Below are positions 24,729 to 27,108 of a stretch of 64,000 nucleotides of DNA, piece after piece (positions within the stretch are counted from its first letter, which is position 1; the number at the start of each line of letters is the position of its first letter). Both the position numbers and the translations under genes were made by a program. The notes under the pieces are model-generated. The model did no database searches and was not told where the DNA came from. It was given only the letters and a program-made list of their open reading frames with translations. Source of the DNA: Chlorobaculum parvum NCIB 8327. Its GTDB lineage: Bacteria > Bacteroidota > Chlorobiia > Chlorobiales > Chlorobiaceae. Location: contig NC_011027.1 of assembly GCF_000020505.1 (NCBI RefSeq), positions 542,001 through 606,000 on the forward strand, in the 5' to 3' direction.

Positions 24729-25283
24729 GTGCAGGGACATATCTTCAATCTTCCCAATTCTTTGAGCTTCCTGAGGATTCTGCTGATTCCCTGGTTCATC
24801 TACTATCTGGATGCGGGCCAGACGTCAACCGCGGTGATTATCATGTTCATCGCGCTGCTCACCGACTGGCTCGATGGCCAGACGGCCCGCTGGACCAACG
24901 AAGTGTCCGACATGGGCAAGATTCTCGATCCGCTTGCCGACAAGCTCTGCCTGGCCAGCGTCGCCCTCTATTACCTTTGGAAAGGTGAGCTTCCGATCTG
25001 GTTTGTGGCGTTCGTGGTGTTTCGTGATCTGGTGATTTTTTTCGGCGCGGCCTGGATTCGTCACCGGCACAACGTGCTCACCACTTCGCTCTGGCCTGGA
25101 AAGTGGGCCGTCGGATTTGTGTCGATGATGTTTATCACGATGGTCTGGCCGCTTCCCATCTTCCAGAAATGGCCGCTCAAGGAGTTCTTCATGTACCTTT
25201 CGGCCGCGACGCTGTTGTACTCATTTATCGAGTATTGCGTCCGTTTCTACCGTATTCAGAAGGGGCTCGACTTCAAAAGCTGA
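24729..25283 (+). CDS. pgsA: CDP-alcohol phosphatidyltransferase, probably phosphatidylglycerophosphate synthase
   Basis: 184 residues with several membrane helices. The family active-site pattern DG-x2-AR-x8-G-x3-D-x3-D is exact, beginning at DGQTAR near residue 51. The opening FNLPNSLSFLRILLIPWFIYY and the length fit PgsA, which makes phosphatidylglycerophosphate from CDP-diacylglycerol and glycerol 3-phosphate in the inner membrane. Cardiolipin- or serine-type relatives are less likely. The start is GTG at 24729 with AGGA 7 nt upstream. The candidate replication origin follows immediately. Confidence 0.88.
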   Translation: MQGHIFNLPNSLSFLRILLIPWFIYYLDAGQTSTAVIIMFIALLTDWLDGQTARWTNEVSDMGKILDPLADKLCLASVALYYLWKGELPIWFVAFVVFRDLVIFFGAAWIRHRHNVLTTSLWPGKWAVGFVSMMFITMVWPLPIFQKWPLKEFFMYLSAATLLYSFIEYCVRFYRIQKGLDFKS

Positions 25284-25704
25284 GCCCATCTGCCGAAATT
25301 TTCTGCCTGCCAAATCCCCCGATTCCCTTGCCTGTAAAGGTTATCCACGGATTAACGCTATAAATATGGATAAGTGTGCGCAAGATGATGGGTACGCTTA
25401 TTGTTATTCCTGCTTAAGCTATTTATTAATAATATTTTATCCGGATTTACCCCGCTAGTTTCGGTTTTGTCAACAGTGTTGATAAGTTGTGGGTAACCTG
25501 TTGGAAGAGCTGTTGGCAGGGTGTGGATTGATGTGGAAAACTTTACTCGAATGACGTATTTCAGCGCCAGCCAGTGTTTTCCGACACGGATGTCGTGAGT
25601 TTTGGTCAGACTCTACTGTTTATGTCTCCCGGAAAAGCGGAAAAGGCCGCCTCGACGTTGTTTCTGTCGAGGCTGCCTTTTCATGTTTTGCTTTAGGCTG
25701 ATTC
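25284..25704. other. 421-nt gene-free region with DnaA-box cluster and AT-rich stretch (candidate oriC)
   Basis: Five 9-mers differ by one base from TTATCCACA: 25341-25349 (plus), 25365-25373 (minus), 25477-25485 (minus), 25488-25496 (minus) and 25532-25540 (minus). Two more with two mismatches lie at 25437-25445 and 25522-25530. Between the outer groups is an AT-rich run (about 25413-25440) that could be an unwinding element. This layout is typical of bacterial origins. dnaA is not in the window. A titration site or a DnaA-regulated region is the alternative. The lpxC terminator occupies the right edge. Confidence 0.6.
25641..25681 (-). terminator. Terminator after lpxC-fabZ
   Basis: AAAAGGC and CCTCGAC pair with GTCGAGG and GCCTTTT around a 9-nt loop. 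On the minus strand it ends in a T-run 24 nt after the lpxC-fabZ stop. Confidence 0.85.
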
Positions 25705-27108
25705 TCAGTTTTTCTTGTCCATGACCGTCGCCATCAGCGAGGCTTCGCAGACGAGCTCGCCACGTACGTAGGCTTTGGCGTCGAACTGGCAGACCGTGCG
25801 GCGCATGTTGGTCATGACCGCTTCGATAACCAGCGTGTCGCCGGGAAGTACCGGTTTGCGGAACCGCGCCTTGTCGATGCCCATGAAGAAGACCACCGAT
25901 TCCTTGATGTTCTCCTTGCCGTTGAGCATCATGATACCACCGGTCTGCGCCATCGCCTCGATGATGAGCACGCCGGGCATCACCGGGTTGCCGGGGAAGT
26001 GGCCCTGGAAGAACGGCTCGTTCATCGTGACGTTCTTGATCGAAACGATCTTTTCGTCGAGCTTGAACTCGACGATCTTGTCGATCAGAAGGAACGGGTA
26101 GCGATGCGGCAGGATGTTCTGGATGGCGTTGATGTCGAAAATGACGCCAGCTTTTTTCTCGTGCTGGTACTGGCGGGCAAGCTTGTTGCGGTCGGCGTAC
26201 TTCTTGAGCTGCTTGACGAATTCGACGTTCGAGGCGTGGCCGGGACGGGCGGCGAGGATCTGCGCCTTGACCGGCATCCCGAGCAGTGCCAAGTCGCCGA
26301 GCAGGTCGAGCAGTTTGTGGCGGGCCGGTTCGTTGGTGAAGCGCAGTTCGCGGTTGTTCAGGATGCCGTTCTGGCCGAGCACCAGGTGCGAAGCGTCCAC
26401 GCCAACCTTGTCGGCAAGCGTCTGCACCTCGGTTTCATCGAGCTGCTTGTCAACGATCACGACGGCGTTGTCAATATCCGCACCCTTGATGATGCCCTGG
26501 TTGGCCATCGCTTCTACCTCCGAGAGGAAGCAGAAGGTGCGGCATGGGGAGAACTCGCGCAGAAACTCCTTGTCGAGATCAAACAGGCCGGAGTGCTGCG
26601 AGCCGAGCGCCGGATTTTTGTAATCGACCATTACCGTCATGCGGAAGCCGTCAAGCGGCAGGGCCACGATGTCCACGCTCTTTTCCGGATTGTGGAACTC
26701 GATGGTCTCGTCGATCACGAGATAGTTTTTCGGTTCATCCTGCTCGGCGATGCCTGCGGAAAGAATCGCTTCTGCGAAGGGATGGGCGCTGCCGTCGAGC
26801 ACCGGCGGTTCAGGCCCGCTGAGTTCGATGCGGCAGTTGTCGATCTGCAAACCGTACAGGGCGGCAAGCACGTGCTCGGTGGTGTGTACCTTGACATCGC
26901 CGATGCCGATGGTGGTGCCACGGAGCACATCGACGACGTGATCGATCAGCGCCGGAATTTCCGGGCAATCATCAATGTCGTTCCTGACGAAAATATAGCC
27001 GGTGTTGACCGGTGCGGGTTTGAAGGTGATGGTGCACTCCCGGCCGGTGTGGAGCCCGGTTCCCGTGAGCGAAACGTCGCCCTGGATGGTACGCTGATTG
27101 ATGAGCAT
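25705..27108 (-). CDS. lpxC: Bifunctional LpxC-FabZ fusion
   Basis: 467 residues joining two enzymes. Residues 1 to about 305 are UDP-3-O-acyl-GlcNAc deacetylase, the committed step of lipid A: zinc-site regions HTTEHVLAALYG near 76 and KLLDLLGDLALLG plus ARPGHASN near 270-295. From about 320 is a hot-dog FabZ dehydratase: HRYPFLLIDKI, then the active His in FQGHFPGNPVMPGVL. The two activities compete for 3-hydroxyacyl-ACP; FabZ sends it to fatty acids and LpxC to lipid A, so a fusion could balance the two. This fusion is established for Bacteroidetes and Chlorobi. It is on the minus strand next to the DnaA-box region. Confidence 0.96.
   Translation of the reverse strand: MLINQRTIQGDVSLTGTGLHTGRECTITFKPAPVNTGYIFVRNDIDDCPEIPALIDHVVDVLRGTTIGIGDVKVHTTEHVLAALYGLQIDNCRIELSGPEPPVLDGSAHPFAEAILSAGIAEQDEPKNYLVIDETIEFHNPEKSVDIVALPLDGFRMTVMVDYKNPALGSQHSGLFDLDKEFLREFSPCRTFCFLSEVEAMANQGIIKGADIDNAVVIVDKQLDETEVQTLADKVGVDASHLVLGQNGILNNRELRFTNEPARHKLLDLLGDLALLGMPVKAQILAARPGHASNVEFVKQLKKYADRNKLARQYQHEKKAGVIFDINAIQNILPHRYPFLLIDKIVEFKLDEKIVSIKNVTMNEPFFQGHFPGNPVMPGVLIIEAMAQTGGIMMLNGKENIKESVVFFMGIDKARFRKPVLPGDTLVIEAVMTNMRRTVCQFDAKAYVRGELVCEASLMATVMDKKN

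Follow-up and report, generated by a model that had tools for sequence, protein, structure and literature searches.

A conserved DnaA-box element of fixed geometry outside the origin, between pgsA and lpxC in the Chlorobiaceae

DnaA-box loci outside the origin are known in Escherichia coli, Bacillus and Streptomyces; chromosomal DnaA-control sites were worked out mainly in E. coli, and the Bacillus and Streptomyces counterparts are looser. In E. coli, datA stimulates hydrolysis of DnaA-ATP and its loss leads to over-initiation, while DARS releases ADP from DnaA and its loss leads to under-initiation. The boxes of datA are arranged around an IHF site, and occupation by IHF turns on the hydrolysis of DnaA-ATP (PMC10950094). 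The positions of DARS1 and DARS2 relative to oriC are conserved in E. coli (PMC4585315), and joint loss of the B. subtilis DnaA-box clusters (DBCs) causes early initiation (PMC5295017). Oligomers of DnaA start at strong boxes and extend over weak ones (PMC4285127), and tandem boxes with a 2-bp gap form the ‘double DnaA box’ favoured by E. coli DnaA in vivo (PMC11317965). No paper joining Chlorobium and DnaA boxes was found among the open-access papers searched.

The window, i.e. the whole stretch of 64,000 nucleotides analysed, covers positions 542001-606000 of the Chlorobaculum parvum genome, which is a single contig of 2,289,249 bp. Positions refer to the window unless marked as genome coordinates. 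A pgsA-like CDP-alcohol phosphatidyltransferase gene (24729-25283, plus strand; ORF with Pfam PF01066, E 3e-36), which ends at the element, and an lpxC-fabZ fusion gene (25705-27108, minus strand; ORF with Pfam LpxC and FabA-like) converge on an intergenic gap at 25284-25704 (genome 567284-567704), which is 3’ of both. The gap measures 421 bp, in agreement with the initial annotation, and the DnaA-box element in it is termed site I. All five one-mismatch 9-mers described before within 200 nt were recovered in place on both strands: TTATCCACG (25341-25349, plus), present in part of the genus only; the left conserved box TTATCCATA (25365-25373, minus; family consensus on the plus strand TATtGAtAA); box 1 of the right array, TTATCAACA (25477-25485, minus); box 2, TTACCCACA (25488-25496, minus), 2 bp from box 1 and forming a double DnaA box with it; and TTTTCCACA (25532-25540, minus), the final repeat of the array extension. 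The right array is lengthened at 25499-25540 (minus) by more box-like repeats, TGTTGGaaG, TGTTGGCAG, TGTGGATTG and TGTGGAAAA. Boxes with two mismatches had been counted as two; there are three, at 25437 (plus), 25467 (plus) and 25522 (minus), and the one at 25467-25475, TTGTCAACA, is placed head-to-head with the box at 25477 in this strain. The AT-rich run of 28 nt, also reported earlier, is found at 25413-25440 with three G/C and is the lowest-GC 28-mer. Midway between the left box and the right array lies an AT-rich dyad of 25 bp, TAAGCTATTTATTAATAATATTTTA (25415-25439; alignment columns 57-81), whose TAA...TTA ends are kept. A bidirectional terminator-like hairpin (25641-25680) follows between the array and the lpxC-fabZ stop codon.

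Five one-mismatch boxes per 200 bp compare with a maximum of two in 5000 dinucleotide shuffles of the gap. Such boxes occur at 0.14 per kb in the 864 kb of host genome sampled, and at this rate five in 200 bp are expected ~2e-6 times per genome. Other sampled 250-bp stretches within single pieces contained three one-mismatch boxes at most; the rpmH-dnaA cluster, split by the contig end in this sampling, has five boxes in ~240 bp when rejoined. The non-origin DnaA boxes of site I are clustered far beyond chance.

The initial annotation had proposed a chromosomal origin distant from dnaA and named a GC-skew minimum at the cluster as the check. A DnaA-box cluster with AT-rich DNA, as looked for in an oriC, is present at site I and, as noted there, dnaA does not adjoin it (genome 248-1630, 567 kb off). 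The GC-skew sample comprised 43 pieces, of which 40 were 20-kb stretches and three were parts of the window. Values are positive between 0 and ~1.15 Mb, with the exception of a single piece near 1.03 Mb, and from ~1.2 Mb to the contig end they are negative. The switches in this sample are at dnaA and near 1.17 Mb, none being seen at 567 kb, and within the window the skew is positive in every 8-kb bin. The cluster (genome 567341-567540) is situated a quarter of the way round the chromosome, mid-replichore. The gap between rpmH and dnaA carries a conserved DnaA-box cluster of its own, in which the tandem pair is 76-77 bp from the next box in most relatives, and this gap is likely oriC. It has the same double box as site I, TGTKGAYAAcTTGTKG, with similar flanks, but differs in the order of the parts, in its spacing (107-112 bp at site I) and in having the skew switch. 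Site I was rejected as oriC on the basis of the skew and of the conserved rpmH-dnaA cluster. A chromosomal origin or a facultative second origin at site I would explain the boxes, the AT-rich run and the shared motif, but it is extremely unlikely given the skew, the fixed spacing in the rpmH-dnaA gap and the distance of 533-586 kb between site I and dnaA in four closed genomes of the genus.

Conservation of the boxes between related genomes, which the initial annotation had also named as a check, is strong. The boxes occupy homologous places in 19 of 19 pgsA-lpxC gaps of the genus Chlorobaculum, and the same element was found in all 28 gaps of > 200 bp in the sister genus. Its layout consists of a left box (consensus gaTATtGAtAACTtT), a variable spacer with the central AT-rich dyad, and the right array of tandem boxes (TGTKGAYAAcTTGTKG...), in which successive 9-mers follow at 11-bp steps, 2 bp apart. 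The left box is 107-112 bp from the right array in the 45 gaps that match the strict pattern in both parts. In L086 and L088, the left box was missed by the family-wide anchor pattern, and only the array served to position the segment; in L078 and L089 a second array match is present and the homologous distance is 111 bp. The spacer sequence is unconserved apart from the 25-bp dyad and a GTTAACgc.CTTTA block. This block, extended to GTTAACgc.CTTTA(T), lies between dyad and array at alignment columns ~88-100 (e.g. L147, L155); it is strongly kept in many members of the sister genus and is not a DnaA box. Box columns hold 1.62 bits of information against 0.52 elsewhere, which no circular shift of the box positions matches.

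Of 61 family genomes, 52 gave a single strong hit each to a sequence-only model (E 1e-11 to 1e-24), and 21 of 25 held-out family genomes were recovered at E < 1e-10. Applied to twelve genomes from other families of the same order, the model gave weak matches with a best E of 0.0015. Site I is missing from nine of the 61 family genomes: in six the pgsA-lpxC gap is 4-120 bp long, two are incomplete, and the ninth is G041. The six short-gap genomes, which belong to the sister genus, and G041 all have another double-box locus, site III, also found in many genomes keeping site I; the absence of site I from these seven weighs against a role in DnaA control. Density beyond chance and retention in related genomes, two of the general marks of a non-origin DnaA-box cluster, are both found, and site I is, as judged from sequence comparison, a conserved non-origin DnaA-box element that is nearly family-wide.

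An RNA gene was rejected, as there is neither an alignment structure nor an Rfam match, despite a stable fold of the single sequence (z -3), which is due in part to the terminator hairpin. Because RNAalifold predicted zero pairs and no consensus structure on the site I alignment, site I is regarded as a DNA element. Rfam gave no match at gathering score and only weak chance hits. Covariation in the central dyad was near expectation, with pairs above it at one or two positions at most, and the dyad is for this reason called a symmetric DNA site only. Conservation of the dyad and of the GTTAACgc.CTTTA block, which are not DnaA boxes, would suit an RNA element or a protein other than DnaA with a preference for TGTKGAYAA repeats. 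This reading is very unlikely: the conserved cores fit TTATCCACA, exactly so in some relatives, the identical doublet occurs in the rpmH-dnaA cluster, and the structure and Rfam searches speak against an RNA.

For the double boxes, an exact search with TGTKGAYAANTTGTKG in the 61 family genomes gave at least 150 matches, and all figures apply to the matches listed; a reversed control pattern gave one match in all. Each match was assigned to a locus by how far it lies from dnaA, lpxC, a HAD-family gene and a dedA-like gene; two corrections to the resulting count concern the short-gap clade, where the automatic site III labels rest on contig identity. Of the 150 matches listed, oriC accounts for 54, site I for 45, site II for 27 and site III for 23, with one elsewhere, which places 149/150 in four loci. 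The host genome has exactly three double boxes, at site I, at site II (genome 928887) and at oriC (genome 2289141). The array of site II (genome 928852-928912; L210:2953-3013) lies between ppa and the HAD-family gene, ~130 bp before the HAD start. Site II is present in many family genomes and resembles site I in its parts: the array is preceded by an AT dyad of 25 bp, and several genomes also have a left box, TGTTGAYAAC, near -186. At site III, the double-box array is just 3’ of a dedA/VTT-domain gene (L202, L205, L207-L209, L241-L257). All six short-gap genomes have this site, and it was seen in no genus other than the sister genus. Sites II and III of G007 were recovered by the model and not by the exact pattern. 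A family-wide element of fixed geometry, oriC and two other loci hold nearly all double boxes among the matches listed. This suggests dedicated DnaA-control sites in a distant phylum, and an exact element of 150 bp is defined as a target.

Regulation of lpxC by DnaA, an alternative raised in the initial annotation, is unlikely at the promoter, because the flanking genes converge and leave the gap at the 3’ end of lpxC-fabZ; promoter control of lpxC was rejected for this position. DnaA bound 3’ of pgsA might instead act on transcription, as a roadblock or terminator aid or by controlling an unannotated transcript, and so couple pgsA output to DnaA. The element is indeed located between the pgsA stop codon and the shared terminator, DnaA doubles as a transcription factor, with site II upstream of the HAD gene, and DnaA is known to act as a roadblock at asnC and datA (PMC10950094). 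We nevertheless consider such a role improbable, as the gap is convergent, no σ70-like promoter was found in the gap, and a roadblock would need less than a fixed 110-bp geometry. In addition, the element stays beside lpxC where a recJ-like or other gene replaces pgsA. Since this was seen in G015 and G035, both with a recJ-like gene in place of pgsA, the element appears independent of pgsA; G041 has a recJ-like neighbour too and no site I. In a few sister-genus genomes pgsA is apart from lpxC (L152, L161, L175, L174), with the recJ-like gene, or another gene in L174, at that place; the element is kept in three of the four and was not detected in L175. Two Chlorobiota MAG contigs (L115, L116) have ruvC-pgsA but lack lpxC within 2.5 kb, and in neither is pgsA followed by a double box.

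Site I is likely to be a non-origin DnaA-binding control locus of the datA, DARS or DnaA-box-cluster type, and it probably helps to control the time of replication start. Like E. coli datA, it is intergenic and outside the origin, has boxes to the left and right of a putative bending site, combines strong and weak boxes, and follows a gene with its terminator (PMC10950094). It differs in its fixed spacing of ~110 bp, its tandem array with 2-bp spacing and its 25-bp AT dyad. The boxes of datA flank an IHF site and those of site I the AT dyad; IHF-like matches in the spacer vary in position. Such matches were found in 22 of 47 spacers, on varying strands, against 8.6 expected (maximum 15) in shuffles, and this enrichment is no more than suggestive of IHF. 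The host has two clear HU/IHF-family genes, and the DNA-binding domain of its DnaA is normal (PF08299). The DnaA family model gave one match in the host genome and so revealed no Hda-like DnaA paralogue. DARS1 and DARS2 of E. coli are likewise few, conserved DnaA-box loci outside the origin, but DARS lies in promoter regions (PMC5835720) and site I in a convergent gap. The B. subtilis DBCs resemble site I as several DnaA-box clusters outside oriC; the Chlorobiaceae differ in having one to three loci, with a precise architecture family-wide, at ~0.5 Mb from oriC. This kind of locus is already known; the precise architecture and the near-family-wide conservation appear to be new.

In the proposed mechanism, DnaA, probably as DnaA-ATP, would nucleate on the double box and from there spread over the weaker repeats. 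The DNA would be bent at the dyad by a protein that may belong to the HU/IHF family, so that the left box folds onto the array. Less DnaA would then be available to oriC, as the complex would either titrate it or, like datA, promote ATP hydrolysis. Titration of DnaA had been suggested in the initial annotation. Widened to DnaA control, this idea is supported by the strong conservation of the boxes; titration in particular is not separable from hydrolysis or reactivation on sequence data. In our analysis, inactivation or titration is put first because of the datA-like layout and the 3’-flank position, and a DARS-like reactivating role is possible.

As a tentative and rather doubtful extension, the Chlorobiaceae may have evolved a multi-site DnaA cycle apart from that of E. 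coli, in which oriC would be joined by dedicated DnaA complexes of fixed geometry at sites I, II and III. Each complex would be built on an AT-rich dyad to which a partner protein binds, and DnaA would be inactivated by at least one of them and reactivated by at least one. In the four closed genomes of the genus, the position as a fraction of the half-chromosome is 0.50, 0.49, 0.54 and 0.38 for site I and 0.81, 0.85, 0.73 and 0.87 for site II; these positions are not taken as evidence of selection on position, because shared gene order alone could explain them. The sole match outside the four loci, among the matches listed, is L258 (G037:C102:3210).
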